Positions 28,942 to 38,063 of a DNA stretch of 61,185 nt are shown here, piece after piece; the first letter of the stretch is position 1, and each line of letters starts with the position of its first letter. Where the stretch lies: NCBI GenBank assembly GCA_015059145.1, contig SVAZ01000009.1, positions 1-61,185 on the forward strand, read 5' to 3'. The notes beneath the pieces were generated by a model, which saw only the letters and a list, made by a program, of their open reading frames with translations, was not told where the DNA came from and searched no databases. The stretch comes from Erysipelotrichaceae bacterium. Its GTDB lineage: Bacteria; Bacillota_I; Bacilli_A; Acholeplasmatales; Anaeroplasmataceae. Made by a program: the position numbers and the translations under genes.

Positions 28942-30027
28942 ATGAAATGTTTGACTAATTTAGATAGAATTACATACCCATCAGACCTTGTTATGGACCT
29001 TACAAAATTGTATAGATTTAAGGGTAAAGATTTCTATTATGAGGATGTATTAAAAGCTACAATGTCTGGCATTGTTAGAGTCACTGTCGAGAAGGATACC
29101 TTTTATGCTGCTAAGCTTTTGAACCTTTCAGTGACTGAAAATAGAATGAGATTAATAATAAAAAAAGATACTACTCCAAGGACAAAGGATGAAAAAACTT
29201 TATCTAATTTAAAAGCTGTATTTACACTGATTCAAAAGAAAGGTGACTCTATAGAGTTGACTACAAATGAGTTTTTACAGCTTGCGAAAAAGATATTTAG
29301 TGATAGTCAAAATATTGATTTTGCATCTGAAGTTGTAAAGGTAAGACATAACTTGATTGAGGAGAAAAAACGAATTTCAAAGCGTGATGATTTGGAGAAA
29401 GAATTAAAGGAATATGGTAAGCTTTTGGCAGCAGGAAACGTAGAGCCAACCCAGCTTATTACTAATCTTTATGTTGATCTTTTACACATGAATATCTATA
29501 CTTCAAATAATGATTTTATGGCTTTGCTTATTTATTACTGTTTGATATTTAGAGAGCGATTTAATGCTTTTAAATATATAAGCTTTTTTCAATTATATTT
29601 TGAAAACAAAGACAAATTTGATAATGCGAGAATCTCTGCCAGCTACGACTGGGAACATGGATTTTCACAAACAGCACCTTTAAATCGTGTGACAATCAAC
29701 ATCATGTTAGATGCTTATCAGCAAGTTGAGAACAGCATTGATGATTTCAAATTTGACAAAAACATTAGAAAAATAGATAACGTGGAAACAACAATTTTGA
29801 AGTTCGGAAATGTGTTCACACGAGAACAAATTAAGAACGCTCATCCACACTTATCAGAGTCGACTATTAATCGTGCTTTAGCAAATTTAAAAGCTCAAAA
29901 TAAAATCAGATCTACTGGAACTGGTCGAGCCGCAACATGGGTTAAACTTGTTCCAAATGAAATGCTTGGTTCAAGAATTAAACAAATGACATTGTTTGAT
30001 TTGATTATGGAAAACGAAGAGGACTAA
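28942..30027 (+). CDS. Fic-fold-like protein lacking the catalytic motif, with C-terminal winged helix
   Basis: 361 residues. The helical order and spacing resemble Fic proteins: an N-terminal 'N-x-x-A-x-x-x-I' helix near 89-98 and a hydrophobic 'D-F-M-A-L-L-I-Y-Y' helix at 191-199. At the place where Fic enzymes carry H-P-F-x-D-G-N-G-R, this protein has E-R-F-N-A-F-K-Y-I (205-213), so the AMP-transfer site is lost. Residues ~285-336 form a winged helix (F-T-R-E-Q-I, S-E-S-T-I-N-R-A-L-A-N-L, G-T-G-R-A-A-T-W), likely to bind DNA. AAAGGAGTGAT precedes the ATG. It abuts the repeat-rich dif region. The Fic link is my alignment by eye; a plasmid-Rep-like wHTH is an alternative. Confidence 0.5.
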   Translation: MKCLTNLDRITYPSDLVMDLTKLYRFKGKDFYYEDVLKATMSGIVRVTVEKDTFYAAKLLNLSVTENRMRLIIKKDTTPRTKDEKTLSNLKAVFTLIQKKGDSIELTTNEFLQLAKKIFSDSQNIDFASEVVKVRHNLIEEKKRISKRDDLEKELKEYGKLLAAGNVEPTQLITNLYVDLLHMNIYTSNNDFMALLIYYCLIFRERFNAFKYISFFQLYFENKDKFDNARISASYDWEHGFSQTAPLNRVTINIMLDAYQQVENSIDDFKFDKNIRKIDNVETTILKFGNVFTREQIKNAHPHLSESTINRALANLKAQNKIRSTGTGRAATWVKLVPNEMLGSRIKQMTLFDLIMENEED

Positions 30028-30043
30028 AAGTCCTCTTTTTTTT
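30017..30043 (+). terminator. Intrinsic terminator overlapping the stop codon
   Basis: AAGAGGACT and AGTCCTCTT form a 9-bp stem with a 3-nt loop, then a T8 run. The stop codon TAA is in the loop region. Confidence 0.92.
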
Positions 30044-30171
30044 ATGTTTTTGAAATGCACATAAATAATGTCTATAACACTAAAACGAGTTGTTATAGCA
30101 GCTCATTTAATGTAAATATAATATTATACAGGATATATTGAATTATTAAACAGGAAAAAGTGACCTTTCTC

Positions 30172-30221
30172 AGACAAATCGAGATGGGTAAATGTACGTA
30201 AATAGAATTTTCGATTTGTCT
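30172..30221. repeat. Inverted repeat H1 with 11-bp arms
   Basis: AGACAAATCGA (30172-30182) and TCGATTTGTCT (30211-30221), perfect arms with a 28-nt loop. An A run follows, not a T run, so it is not a plus-strand terminator. The inner arm CAAATCGA recurs in H3 across dif. Confidence 0.8.
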
Positions 30222-31096
30222 AAAAAAAAACAGTTATAAAGACACATGTAACTTATTGAAAATGAAATTGATATTTTTCTATTTATAGTATTACACAAAA
30301 TGTTGAAATAAAAAATTCAAATGTAAAAATTAATTAATTGAATAAACGGTAAAATTATCTAGCAATTTAACGTCAAAAAAATATATACATAAATAATGTA
30401 TCTTTTAAAAATGATTATGTTTTAAGATGAAAATTCAAAAATAAATGAAAATTAAAAAGATATTCAAAATTTATAGAATTGTTCGAAAATGTTTCACATG
30501 CCACTTTATAAGTGACTATAACATTAAAGCTTAATCACATACAATTATTTTCTTATGCTTGATAGTGGTCAGAATATAAATTTAATTTTTGGAGATAAAC
30601 TAAAGCTGATGGAATAAAAAAAGATTTTTTAATTAAGAGTTAGCGATATACCATTAAAAAGAATTTTTTTTCGACTTTCAAATATATACATAAATAATGT
30701 CTATATTAAAAAAGGTGTAAACTTAATAATTGAATTTAATAAATTGAACATCTGTTTTGATTTTGAATGCTTATGGTTAACTGCAATATAATAATACTAA
30801 AGCTACACAGTAATTTTTCACAATATACCAGGCTGTTCATTTAAAGAATTTTTTAGAGTAAAAAACAATTAAACTTAATTGGATCTTAAGCGGCTTCTAT
30901 ATAATCTCTGTGATGTGTTACAGAAATAAAAGTAATAAAATAACCCGAAAAACAAACTTGAAAATATAGACATAAATAATGTCTATTATAAAAACTAGGC
31001 TATCTTATACAATTTCATTAATTAAATGATATAAAAATTAAGCTTTTTAGAAGCATTCTTTTAACGAGCTATTAACAGCAGCATTTAATGTGATGA

Positions 31097-31154
31097 TTTT
31101 TTAGCGATTAAAAAATCATAAAACGTACATTTGTACATTTCAAACGCTAAAAAA
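31097..31154. repeat. Inverted repeat H2 with 10-bp arms
   Basis: TTTTTTAGCG (31097-31106) and CGCTAAAAAA (31145-31154). An alternative pairing GATTTTTTA/TAAAAAATC overlaps it. TTTTTTAGCGAT recurs at 31965-31976, right of dif. Confidence 0.75.
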
Positions 31155-31646
31155 TGTTTCCGATTAATCAACATAAATAATGTCTATTTTAAAAATAGAA
31201 TATATATAGAAATATTAATGCAATATAAAGGATGATTTACAATATCAGAAGAAGTAAAAGAGAACTGGCGAATATACTATTAAAAAAATAGAAATTGCGT
31301 TTGGAATCTAAAAGACCTAAATCTACTAAAAAAAACATATGTTAACTGGATAGAAGAAGGAGAAGAAGCTAGGTTTTTATCAAATATTTCAAACATTAGA
31401 ACCGTAAGGACCATGATATAAGATCATATAAGATAGGTAAAACCAGAGGGTGAAGTGTAGAAATACCCGCAAAAGACATATTCAGTTGCTATTCAATATT
31501 ATTGTGATATAGGAAACATATTCATTTGAGGCTAAATGATAGTGTTTAAGCAGTAGAATATGCTCATTTTATGCAAATAAACATGGTCAAAATAGAGTTT
31601 TAGGCATATTTCAGGGGGTATTTTGTCGATTATTTATATCTAATTA

Positions 31647-31674
31647 AGTTATCATAATATATATTATGTAAACC
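31647..31674 (+). other. dif-like XerC/XerD recombination site
   Basis: 28 bp: left arm AGTTATCATAA, centre TATATA, right arm TTATGTAAACC. The Bacillus subtilis dif I know is ACTTCCTAGAA, TATATA, TTATGTAAACT, giving 22 of 28 identities, with centre 6/6 and XerD arm 10/11. The two arms here are imperfect inverted copies (8 of 11). It lies where the left (plus) and right (minus) gene arms converge and 4.4 kb from xerD. These three independent facts support dif. There is one such site in the window. Confidence 0.85.
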
Positions 31675-31780
31675 ATTGAATAATGGCTTGACTATGCGAT
31701 TTTTTGCCACTTTGTGTATAACTATAATTATCAACATTGCGTTCTTTCTCGATAAATGGCTTAAAATCAATGTTTTTTGG

Positions 31781-31861: not shown

Positions 31862-32089
31862 AAATTTTTAATGACAAAAAAACTGATCAAATTATCTGAT
31901 ATCTATATACATGTATTGTTTAGCATTTACAGTGAATGCTTGATAGTGCTTTTATAAAGCTTTATTTTTTAGCGATCGAAATTCAGATACATGTGTAATT
32001 GTCCATTTCGTTTTGTCTCAGATGGACATTATATTTCTTGCTTGTATCTTTTTTTTATAACTATTTACTTTTATTAAAAGTTAAGATAT

Positions 32090-33641
32090 TAAAAACTAGT
32101 TTTAATTGTGCTAAATTAACATTATTTATGAAAAATATTATAATAACTCATTTTAAAAACTATTTATATTTTAAAAATACTTCTGTAAATTGTGTGTTTA
32201 AAAAAATAAATTTTGGGCAAATATGCATGATTGTTGTTTTTGTTTATTTATTTAAGTATTTGCTTTTGATTAACAAATGTTTTGGAAATACAAAAGATAA
32301 AAAGTTTTTATTTTTATGAGTGGAAATGGTTTTTAAAACTATATTAAAAATGAAATATTTATTTATTTTACTTAGACTGGAATTTATACGAATCCATTTG
32401 AAGTTTTTTGTGAAATGTTATTTTTGGATCACTGGTTGTCACACTTCTATAATTAATGCAGTATTAATTCATTTTTCTGTTGCTTTAGGTTCATTTGTAA
32501 TATAAAAAAACAAGTTTTAATTATTTTGTATACTCGTTTTGTGATTAATTAAAAATAGAAAATAAACCTCTTATATCTAGTTTTTAAAACTAATTAACGT
32601 TTGAAATATATTTAGTTTTGTGTAACTTTCTTTTTTAATTTAATACTCTATTTTTTTAAACATATTTCAAGAACTACTAAAGCTGGATTGTCCGCAAAAG
32701 GGTGAAAGGTTCATTCCGGGTAAAAAGTTATTTTTTATCATGTATACTTTTACTTCAGTTGACAATGTTATTTCGGCTCTTACTTGTTTTTGAAAATAAT
32801 GTTTCAAAATGGTAAAAAAGATTTTTAGGCATTGAATTTTATTTTTTATAATTTTATACAATACTTGATTTAGTTTTTAAAACTATTTAGAGTTTAAAAA
32901 AATAATAAATATTGATTTAATTTGAAACTGATCTATTCTATATTTATTATTTCTTTTTTAGTGCTTTTACCATATTTAAACAAATTGAAAATGAGTTTAT
33001 AAACGTTTGAGTAAATGATGCGCATAACAATTAAGCCTTGAGTCATCTGATTTGACGTAAAATGCCATTTATTTTTTTTCAGTTTAGCTTCTATTCAATT
33101 TGTTAATCATGACTTTATCTAACTGCTCCATTAAATTATTTTTCATCCTATACATAAATTTCTAAATGAGTTTTCGTGGTGTGTTATAATAAATATTTTT
33201 AAATGTCAAATACATAATCTAGTATTTAAAACTATTTAGATAATGAATTTTATTCCTTAAGGTCACCTGGTGCTAAAGCATTAATTAAGTTATAAATTTT
33301 AAAAAAAGATAGATTTTCTTATCATTGATTTTCTATCGAACAAGGTACAGGAGCAGGTGATTTTAAAACATCAAAAAATGGCATCAGAATCATTTTATTT
33401 CACAATCAGCTTATTCGATCAACTTTCAAAATAAACCAGTTAAATTGCTTATTTAAAATGTTTTTTTAAAAAGATATATATTAATAGATTACAATATGTA
33501 AAACGCTTCTCCTGCTTGTCTTGGGGATACAAAATTTTCATTTGCTAAGTAGTTTTTGCCACTATTAAAACAATTATCTATAAATCTTGATAATATTTAT
33601 TTTAACGTTAATATCTAGTTTTTAAAACCATTTTGAAAACG
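32090..33641. repeat. Array of seven AT-rich quasi-palindromes (ATCTAGTWTTTAAAAC), right of dif
   Basis: Copies at about 32090-32105 (AAAACTAGTTTT), 32151-32165, 32328-32341, 32575-32592, 32871-32885, 33217-33241 and 33613-33628. The best are ATCTAGTTTTTAAAACTA and, at 33217, ATCTA...TAGAT with 5-bp symmetric ends. TAGTTTT-T-AAAACTA is a perfect 7-bp-arm palindrome in several. Start-to-start distances grow away from dif: 61, 177, 247, 296, 346, 396. A TTTGAAA-like box follows copies 4 and 7. In so AT-rich a region the weakest copies (2 and 3) could be chance. Confidence 0.7.
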
Positions 33642-36037: not shown

Positions 36038-36964
36038 TTATTCCTCCTTCTTAGCTAATGGATGTGTGTGATCATACATTTCCTTAAGCTTCGATTTGTC
36101 AATGTGAGTGTAGATTTGAGTCGTTGAAATATCCTCATGTCCTAAAATTTCTTGAACTATTCTCAAATCAACACCACCCTCAAGAAGGTGAGTGGCAAAA
36201 CTATGACGAATTGTATGAGGTGAAATTTCCTTAGTTATGCCACAATCCTTTGCAAGATTTGCAATGAACTTATAGAAGCCTTGTCTAGACATTTTGTCTC
36301 CTTTGTAGTTAAAAAACAATAAATCAGTTGGTTCTTTAATCAATTCCTCACGTGCTGTTTCAATGTATTTTCTTAGAGAGACAATCGCCATTTCGCCAAG
36401 TGGAACCATTCTTTCCTTGTCACCCTTACCAATTATGATCATATATTTTTCTCTAAGATGTAGATTAGAAAGCTTTAAATCAAGAAGCTCAGTGATACGT
36501 AAACCTGCAGCATACATGGTCTCTAGCATGGCTCTATTTCTTATGTCAGTAGCCTTAGTACCATTAATAGCCTGAAGCATTGTGTTAACCTCATCCTTCG
36601 TTAAGACTACAGGTAAAGGTTTGTCAGCTTTAGGAGTTTCAATAAGGCTTGCCGGATTATCTCTAGTAATGTTTTCTGTATATAGGAATTTATGAAACTC
36701 CTTAACAGCAATCACCTTTCTAGCAATCGTTTGTTTTGACAGCTCTTTTCTTTTTAATGATAATACATATTTTTCAATATGCTCACGCTCGATATCTTGA
36801 ACATCAAAAACTCCTTGATACTTTTTTAAAAACTCTGCATAAAAATTTATATCATTTAAATATGCATCAATTGTATTTTTAGAGGATCTTTTTTCATTTT
36901 GAAGATAATACTTGAAATCAGATATTTCATAAAAAACAATTTCTTTTTCTTCTTTTCTTTTCAT
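36038..36964 (-). CDS. xerD: Tyrosine recombinase XerD
   Basis: 308 residues. Catalytic residues of the tyrosine recombinases are all present: R156 (A-G-L-R), K180 (G-K-G-D), H250 and R253 (H-T-I-R-H), H276 (L-G-H) and Y285 (I-Y-T-H). An N-terminal SAM-like core-binding domain is at ~12-100. XerD resolves chromosome dimers at dif together with XerC. Named xerD from its link to deoB and the H-T-I-R-H-S-F-A-T-H-L-L-E-G-G pattern. ATG 36964 is used because GGTGAT in the hemW end is 5 nt upstream. It is 4.4 kb from the dif-like site. Confidence 0.93.
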   Translation of the reverse strand: MKRKEEKEIVFYEISDFKYYLQNEKRSSKNTIDAYLNDINFYAEFLKKYQGVFDVQDIEREHIEKYVLSLKRKELSKQTIARKVIAVKEFHKFLYTENITRDNPASLIETPKADKPLPVVLTKDEVNTMLQAINGTKATDIRNRAMLETMYAAGLRITELLDLKLSNLHLREKYMIIIGKGDKERMVPLGEMAIVSLRKYIETAREELIKEPTDLLFFNYKGDKMSRQGFYKFIANLAKDCGITKEISPHTIRHSFATHLLEGGVDLRIVQEILGHEDISTTQIYTHIDKSKLKEMYDHTHPLAKKEE

Positions 36965-36965
36965 A

Positions 36966-38063
36966 TTAATCACCAACAAATTCTTCAAACACTAAATTAC
37001 CAATAAATAATTTATCATTCGATATTTTTATATTGTCACCATTAACCTCAATTAATTTTTTATTGATTAGCTTTTCTAAATTAAAATCGACAAATGGATC
37101 GCTATTGAATAATTCCTTATATTTATTAATTGATACTCCATCAACTAATCTTAAGCCAAGTAAAAAATATTCCTTTTTTCTTTCGGCTTCTGAAATTTCA
37201 ATTTCATCTAATTTAAAATCCTTTAAATATTTATTAACTGTTTTATTATTTTCATATCTCACATTATTAAGATACCCACAAGCTCCAGCACCTAAGCCAA
37301 TATAGCTATCACAATTCCAATAAAGCATATTATGAATTGATTCATAGCCATACCTTGCAAAATTAGAAATCTCATAATGATGAAAGCCTTCAGTAATTAA
37401 TCTATTAGAAATGTAATTATACATATTAGAAATAATATCATCATCTAATAGAGAAATTTCTTTTTTATTAAGCCTATGCTCTAAAACAGTTTTTTCTTCT
37501 AATATTAGGCTGTAATATGAAATATGCTTAACATTTAAATTTAATATGAACTGTAAATCACATTTCACATCATCAATACTAGTATTTGGTATACCAAACA
37601 TTAAATCAACATTTATATTACTTATTTCATATTTATTAAATAATGAAATTGCATTTATTACATCCTCCTTAGTGTGATGACGATTTAGTAATCTCTTAGC
37701 ATTCTCATTTATAGTTTGTACACCTAGGCTCACTCTATTAATATTATATTTTTTTAGTAGGATAACTAATTTCTCTGTAACAAGCTCAGGATTAAGCTCT
37801 ATTGTGCTTTCCTTTGCATTTTGAGTAAATGTGCTACATTTAATTAAAATTTTTTCTAGGAGCTTTAAATCTATCGAGTTAGGAGTTCCACCACCTAAAT
37901 AGACAGTATCTATATTTTTAAGTTCTCCTTGATAAGCATCAAATTCTTCTATTAACCTATTTACATATATATTATGGATATTTTCCTTAGCTACAATTTT
38001 AGGGAAGTCGCAATAGCTACAAATAGTTTTACAAAAAGGTATGTGTATATATAACCCTTTCAT
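36966..38063 (-). CDS. hemW: Heme chaperone HemW (radical SAM; HemN-like)
   Basis: 365 residues. Radical-SAM motif C11-x3-C15-x2-C18 in 'I-P-F-C-K-T-I-C-S-Y-C', then G-G-G-T-P-N-S. HemW-type proteins differ from HemN in lacking an extra N-terminal Cys and are thought to deliver heme. No heme biosynthesis gene is in the window, so the true role here is uncertain. It overlaps the upstream amidohydrolase by one base and is followed by xerD. Confidence 0.88.
   Translation of the reverse strand: MKGLYIHIPFCKTICSYCDFPKIVAKENIHNIYVNRLIEEFDAYQGELKNIDTVYLGGGTPNSIDLKLLEKILIKCSTFTQNAKESTIELNPELVTEKLVILLKKYNINRVSLGVQTINENAKRLLNRHHTKEDVINAISLFNKYEISNINVDLMFGIPNTSIDDVKCDLQFILNLNVKHISYYSLILEEKTVLEHRLNKKEISLLDDDIISNMYNYISNRLITEGFHHYEISNFARYGYESIHNMLYWNCDSYIGLGAGACGYLNNVRYENNKTVNKYLKDFKLDEIEISEAERKKEYFLLGLRLVDGVSINKYKELFNSDPFVDFNLEKLINKKLIEVNGDNIKISNDKLFIGNLVFEEFVGD

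Follow-up and report, generated by a model that had tools for sequence, protein, structure and literature searches.

What does an array of identical short sites do beside dif? Chromosomal dif is commonly regarded as a lone 28-bp site. In the DNA analysed here, a 61,185-nucleotide stretch from an Erysipelotrichaceae bacterium that we call the window, dif is surrounded by operator-like motifs that relatives share, each with a named candidate protein. The locus raises three questions: what sets these sites apart, which proteins may bind them, and what they could be for.

A five-site array at the terminus

The 13-mer ACATAAATAATGT, referred to here as class A, occurs five times at 30059-31183 in an exact-match scan of the window, on the + strand throughout and with spacings of 328, 301, 282 and 201 bp between successive starts (Table 1). 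The stretch is non-coding: the gene on its 5′ side stops at 30027, after which the first listed ORF of at least 100 aa begins at 31999. A first-pass annotation of this DNA had reported five copies in 1.1 kb of non-coding DNA beside dif, and both the array and the neighbouring dif-like 28-mer were confirmed. The GC skew switches sign at about 33 kb in the window and xerD lies close by, which together identify the array region as the terminus.

Table 1. Features of the dif region, in window coordinates
Feature	Position	Strand	Remarks
Fido (Fic-like) protein gene, 361 aa	28942..30027	+	C-terminal winged-helix-like region (read by eye)
Terminator-like hairpin	30016..30038	+	Between Fido gene and array
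Class A site 1, ACATAAATAATGT	30059..30071	+	Exact copy
Class A site 2	30387..30399	+	Exact copy
Class A site 3	30688..30700	+	Exact copy
Class A site 4	30970..30982	+	Exact copy
Class A site 5	31171..31183	+	Exact copy; ends 462 bp before dif
Polypurine tract AGAAGAAGGAGAAGAAG	31352..31368	+	Contains KOPS-like GAAGAAG directed at dif
Class C half-site AAACATATTCA	31514..31524	+	dif -144
Class C half-site, degenerate, inverted	31537..31547	-	Pairs with 31514; 2 mismatches; position agrees with half-sites near -122 in relatives
Class C half-site	31579..31589	+	dif -79; 1 mismatch
dif, AAGTTATCATAATATATATTATGTAAAC	31646..31673	+	dif-like 28-mer; same core beside same upstream gene in relatives
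Class A-like site	32119..32131	-	1 mismatch; beyond dif, reversed
Class B palindrome CTAGTTTTTAAAACTAA	32577..32593		1 mismatch to CTAGTnTTnAAnACTAG
Class B site	32870..32886		2 mismatches
Class B site	33219..33235		1 mismatch
Class B site	33615..33631		2 mismatches
xerD	36038..36988	-	4.4 kb from dif

The copies had also been described as exact palindromes, with a paired change (TACAT/ATGTA) in the flanks of one of them. ACATAAATAATGT is an interrupted palindrome in which the arms ACAT and ATGT enclose an asymmetric, nearly invariant AAATA centre. Across 8 flanking positions at 56 near-dif sites, complementarity did not exceed that of shuffles (smallest P 0.074). Exact symmetry and the paired change therefore both fall, the latter not being general, and the idea of a longer palindrome or a hairpin here was rejected. 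Here and in the near/far, orientation, co-occurrence, left-site and TAWWAT counts below, L030 (G006, with no authentic dif) was excluded.

Conservation anchored on dif spans about -220 to +100 in 54 genomes of the order (L030 and L051 excluded). In 18 Anaeroplasma loci the heptamer GAAGAAG points toward dif 109 times and away from it 3 times, the highest polarity among heptamers with at least 60 copies. We regard it as a KOPS candidate, resembling the Lactococcus type. Two further observations concern the right side of dif. A DnaA-box-like stretch, TGTGTGGATAAGTTG, lies just past dif, at about +50, in Acholeplasma-like families (e.g. L075-L080) and is degenerate in the window (about 31709-31725). 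The gene of about 1 kb to the right of dif in f3 and f5 looks asparaginase-like when its translations are read by eye.

The 13-mer is clustered at dif, not abundant

In its own 1.43-Mb genome the exact 13-mer occurs seven times, five of them in the array, as compared with one occurrence of a letter-reversed control; it is not a common word of this genome. We compared the dif regions of 58 relatives, and then those of G122 and G041. Relatives do not lack the arrangement. Among the 27 genus genomes, dif was located in 19, and 18 of these (17 of 18 loci, and G041) carry the 13-mer with at most one mismatch within 2 kb of it. The enrichment is confined to the vicinity of dif: in 18 Anaeroplasma loci, 25 exact copies fall within the 68,782 bp that lie no more than 2 kb away and none within the 206,354 bp farther out, with no copy of the letter-reversed control in either portion. 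Over all 27 genus genomes there is no clear excess (46 exact places versus 39 for the reversed control), so that clustering at dif, rather than abundance, is what is unusual about the 13-mer. The 46 places comprise 25 no farther than 2 kb from a located dif, 2 beside the dif of G041, 4 in promoters of a WYL-domain regulator considered below, 1 in a Y-family polymerase promoter and 14 others.

These figures also bear on a suggested likeness to matS, for which PMC3330122 gives 23 sites over 800 kb. With five of seven genomic copies in 1.1 kb, 25 exact copies near dif and none far from it, and 19 places elsewhere, no more than the 39 of the reversed control, membership in the matS class is refuted by distribution.

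Positions near -500 and -680 recur among the class A sites of Anaeroplasma loci, and the nearest left site is at least 411 bp from dif in 15 of the 16 loci having one (345 bp in G001). Successive spacings of left sites are 180-188 bp in 7 of 21 cases, possibly a looping distance. The related genera g14, g15 and g17 mostly have a lone copy some 0.3 kb past dif: a single reversed copy at +270 to +347 is found in 7 of 9 g14 loci (one contig ends too early) and in 2 of 3 g15 loci, on the same side of dif as the window's site at 32119. A site at the dif of G122 (g17, WYL-bearing) was forecast before its sequence was fetched; an exact copy was found at +348, in the orientation opposite to that of g14. 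An exact site is also present at the dif of G065, which belongs to another family. A full-text literature search for Anaeroplasma together with replication terminus found no entry, which does not imply absence elsewhere.

Two further motif classes flank the same dif

The array is a real feature of the terminus, as the first-pass annotation proposed; it is just one of several motif layers, and two others had been overlooked. Class B is the 17-bp palindrome CTAGTnTTnAAnACTAG. With up to 2 mismatches allowed, 36 of 39 family loci (G006 excluded) have it no farther than 3 kb from dif, either on one side or on both, and 11 of its 17 exact places in the genus are within 2 kb of dif, 2 are in promoters of DUF1836 genes and 4 are elsewhere. 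A class B site with up to 3 mismatches stands 108-119 bp before the DUF1836 start in all 27 testable loci, the genome of the window included; these come from 30 loci examined, out of 68 genomes with a match, after L246, L269 and L270, with less than 60 bp of upstream sequence, were dropped. DUF1836 has been assigned to the HTH clan (PMC3146951), and the DUF1836 HTH protein is our candidate for the class B binder.

Class C is a 34-bp inverted repeat with the half-site AAACATAnTCA. A half-site is positioned at -143 to -146 from dif in 24 of 38 family loci (G006 and G064 excluded), 9 of which have an inverted partner 22-24 bp further on, and half-sites recur near -79 and +251/+275 in some family loci. 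Searched genus-wide as an exact 11+11 pattern, class C matched 2 genomes and was abandoned in that form; half-sites at fixed positions are the useful one. At 10 of 50 loci the promoter of the Fido gene carries the full site (up to 4 mismatches, shuffle P <=0.005); that promoter in the genome of the window has no such site. Dropped from this count were 9 loci lacking the gene (G006, G023, G064 and six of f3). Of 40 relatives, 35 encode a Fido-domain protein, and the family profile of the protein beside dif hits one of known structure (8uqu, E 1e-28). The Fido gene adjoins dif in families f1, f2, f4 and f5; in f3 it lies at least 18 kb away in the 4 genomes with both on one contig. The candidate class C binder is this Fido-wHTH protein, encoded beside dif.

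A WYL-domain regulator as candidate binder of the 13-mer

In four species (G013, G011, G018 and G004) an exact 13-mer precedes the orthologous gene for an HTH_11-WYL-WCX regulator by 46-79 bp. This gene is present in 26 of the 27 genus genomes. With one mismatch allowed, which adds G019, G020, G006, G016 and G023, 9 of these 26 carry a site in its promoter; the expectation is about 0.08 in 26 x 200 bp, given a background of 3 per 206 kb. Six of these nine copies abut TANAAT, and the array sites mostly share their orientation. G023 was included although its WYL gene is split over contigs, and sites with 2 mismatches (P about 0.06-0.13 where computed) were not counted. No site with up to one mismatch occurs in the WYL promoter of the other 17 genomes. 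In the genome of the window the best match in that promoter has 4 mismatches, and 14 WYL promoters inspected from g14, g15 and g17 differ from the 13-mer at 3 or more positions.

The regulator encoded in the genome of the window (G000:C33:51237-52145) matches the Pfam domains WYL (1.9e-11), HTH_11 (3.7e-8) and WCX (3.7e-7). All five proteins scanned from relatives contain HTH, WYL and WCX domains, and the family profile gives a weak match to PafBC chains in the PDB (7p5x, E 7e-4).

A site in a promoter need not be bound by the product of the gene downstream. The distribution of gene and site bears on the same question. Among 120 sampled genomes of the order, the WYL gene (E 1e-20) was found in 37, solely in g1, g14, g15 and g17. 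Over 58 genomes, a site (up to one mismatch, within 2 kb of dif) accompanies the gene in 26 cases, the gene occurs without a site in 1, the site without the gene in 3 and neither in 28 (Fisher 8e-12; within family 1e-6). With exact sites alone the corresponding counts are 19, 8, 2 and 29 (Fisher 3e-7). Many rows are close kin and neither analysis corrects for kinship; L030 (G006) and L053 (G050, whose contig ends 140 nt right of dif) were dropped. The single gene-bearing genome without a site, G015, has a related dyad, TAGACATTATAATTGTCTA, at -459. The three with a site and no gene are G079, whose one site is weak, G022, whose genome is 84% complete and gave no WYL match, and G065, in which no WYL gene was detected at E 1e-20 despite the exact site. 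G053 (g14), which lacks both, and G079 (g15), which retains the weak site only, suggest that gene and site were jointly lost more than once. Taken together, these patterns make the HTH_11-WYL-WCX regulator the likely binder of the 13-mer, and it seems to be self-regulated in part of the genus.

A few other genes also have class A-type sites upstream. A 20-nt promoter-type pattern has 27 places (10 WYL promoters, 8 copies of a 20-mer in G018, 4 inside ORFs and 5 others), and no wide regulon was established from them. The G018 copies are identical occurrences of GACATCAATAATGTAAAAAT (L205, L209 and L212-L217), with a class A-like site; the same ORF lies downstream at both places compared, L205 and L209, so GACATCAATAATGTAAAAAT is probably one repeated element. 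In G004 a class A-like site abuts TATAAT upstream of a DEAD_2 helicase-type gene (L210). Y-family polymerase matches are present in 24 of the 27 genus genomes, and a site with up to one mismatch precedes the gene at 2 of the 30 loci, which include fragments (exact in G019, one mismatch in G010); the polymerase was therefore rejected as a general target. Weaker dyads lie upstream of it in G018, G022 and G000 (P 0.37, 0.035 and 0.315), with little or nothing at the rest. No genus genome has a LexA match over the curated cut-off (0 of 27; one weaker match, in G007), in a search that placed 6 of 14 known genomes over the cut-off and gave a match in 9. A damage-sensing role for the regulator is possible, not established.

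A proposed layered complex round dif, and other readings of the sites

What the copies at dif lack is the context of the WYL-promoter copies. None of 56 array sites has TAWWAT immediately after it and 7 have it offset by 1-3, the region yields about as many promoter-like matches as shuffles do (16 versus a mean of 14.9), and the DNA between class A sites is poorly conserved in comparison with relatives. A promoter role was rejected on the first of these counts, and the three together make the dif copies look like a binding platform rather than elements of gene control.

The best reading of these data is that dif lies within arrays of what would be promoter-less operators for three self-regulated proteins. 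From the sites, their clustering and conservation, the copies that some genomes have in the regulators' promoters, and the co-occurrence of WYL gene and site, we infer binding by the three proteins, their presence at dif and whatever function they have there. The regulator, probably as a dimer, would bind the 13-mers, which at dif would serve as clustered non-promoter sites. With class B sites occupied by the DUF1836 HTH protein and class C sites by the Fido-wHTH protein, a layered nucleoprotein complex would form round dif. Its most likely task would be to mark or fold the terminus, working with XerCD/FtsK at dimer resolution. We consider the explanation as a whole reasonably probable. Regulators with a second job would then act much as ArgR and PepA do as accessory proteins at plasmid Xer sites. 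The WYL layer may in addition couple the state of the terminus, or DNA damage, to the complex, since PafBC and DriD, acting in DNA-damage responses, bind ssDNA through their WYL domains (PMC11804915). The first-pass suggestion of a dimeric protein that marks the terminus is compatible with this scheme, with the WYL-type HTH regulator as candidate, although its parallel with matS fails. If the proposal is true, chromosome dimer resolution is tied to DNA-damage-type regulators, and a testable terminus-marking system exists beyond the MatP and Tus/RTP lineages. The type strain Anaeroplasma bactoclasticum ATCC 27112, which we take to be G018, has an exact site both near dif and in the WYL promoter.

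A bolder extension, which we consider rather doubtful, makes dif in Anaeroplasmataceae a sensory hub. The WYL, DUF1836 and Fido-wHTH proteins, each self-regulated and each with promoter-less operators there, would signal a duplicated terminus, dimers left unresolved or ssDNA to gene expression, and would license XerCD recombination. This would amount to a terminus checkpoint made of transcription factors, in a genus without detectable LexA.

Several other explanations compete with a layered complex. The cluster might consist of decoys that soak up the WYL regulator. Because replication reaches it last, the cluster would double just as a round ends, shifting the level of free regulator and with it the expression of a regulon, possibly one for DNA repair. 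Such titration would account for sites that are multiple in Anaeroplasma and have no directly following -10, and it would suit a regulator seemingly controlling itself in part of the genus, a few of whose presumed sites elsewhere sit in promoters, that of a Y-family polymerase among them, in genomes without LexA over the cut-off. However, the one dif site retained in g14, g15 and g17 is too few for a sink, and a sink requires neither a roughly fixed distance from dif nor an orientation bias. We judge titration unlikely.

That orientation bias is what a polar, Ter-like fork trap would predict, with bound sites admitting forks and blocking their exit. Of the 56 near-dif sites, 49 are directed at dif, from both sides. 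Many of these sites are orthologous copies, hence not independent, so the bias is partly one event, and AT skew itself favours the dif-pointing orientation of the 13-mer. The remaining 7 sites and that of G122 have the opposite orientation, and the g14 site stands on a single side of dif. Known Ter sites, moreover, are longer than 13 bp. An apparently self-regulated binder does recall tus, a gene controlled by a ter site (PMC10331603), but a fork trap is on balance quite improbable.

We give still less weight to the sites being promoters or operators of short unannotated transcripts that run toward dif. They are intergenic, their orientation is mostly that of the WYL-promoter copies, and a few are followed by TAWWAT at an offset of 1-3. 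Against this stand the missing direct -10 hexamer, the shuffle-like number of promoter matches and the poor conservation between sites, and an Rfam search for known RNAs returned one match only, far below its gathering score.

Two explanations are very improbable. A MatP/matS-like macrodomain organiser would fit a 13-bp site with a partial dyad clustered at the terminus, but not a cluster within 2 kb of dif in place of sites scattered across hundreds of kb, a sequence unlike matS, or a candidate binder with HTH_11-WYL-WCX domains in place of the MatP fold. Operators left behind by a mobile element that integrated via dif would agree with the description of dif as a target of insertion sequences and phages, and with exact 13-mers upstream of an OrfB_IS605-type gene (L147, by Pfam) and an ORF fragment that looks alike by eye (L158), but not with the recurrence of the sites, similarly placed, in 18 of 19 Anaeroplasma genomes as well as in sister genera, from the same upstream gene to dif, in an interval where no further ORF of at least 100 aa is conserved.

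Comparison with known systems

With matS/MatP the motif set shares a 13-bp site clustered at the terminus, and differs from it in an unrelated candidate binder and in two further motif classes. The orientation bias toward dif and, in part of the genus, an apparently self-regulated binder recall Tus-ter and RTP-Ter; here the candidate proteins are unrelated, and the sites are short and occur in both orientations. As with KOPS of the Lactococcus type, GAAGAAG near dif is strongly polar, but it is a motif separate from the 13-mer.

The candidate class A binder has the HTH, WYL and WCX domains of PafB and PafC. Known members of this group, PafBC and DriD, work at promoters, whereas here an operator-like cluster is found at dif; we know of no WYL-domain regulator with an operator cluster there. 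DriD is a homodimer whose structure has been solved with promoter DNA and with ssDNA (PMC11804915). Among the matches listed in our literature search, none linked the WYL domain to dif, dimer or terminus, which does not imply absence elsewhere.

At the plasmid Xer sites cer and psi, ArgR and PepA, and also ArcA, shape recombination within an accessory complex, and cer-like accessory sequences lie within about 200 bp on a single side. If bound by their candidate regulators, the A, B and C motifs would recall this arrangement: they lie near dif, and some genomes also have them in the promoters of those regulators. They differ in that the site is a chromosomal dif, with motifs to its left and right that lie as far as 1.6 kb off. 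Class A does not keep to the one-sided span of about 200 bp, and only class C is that near dif. The candidate proteins are three, and neither ArgR nor PepA, both DNA-binding proteins (PMC2409434), is among them. By analogy, the accessory complex of plasmid Xer sites nonetheless appears to be the nearest working parallel to the motif set at dif.
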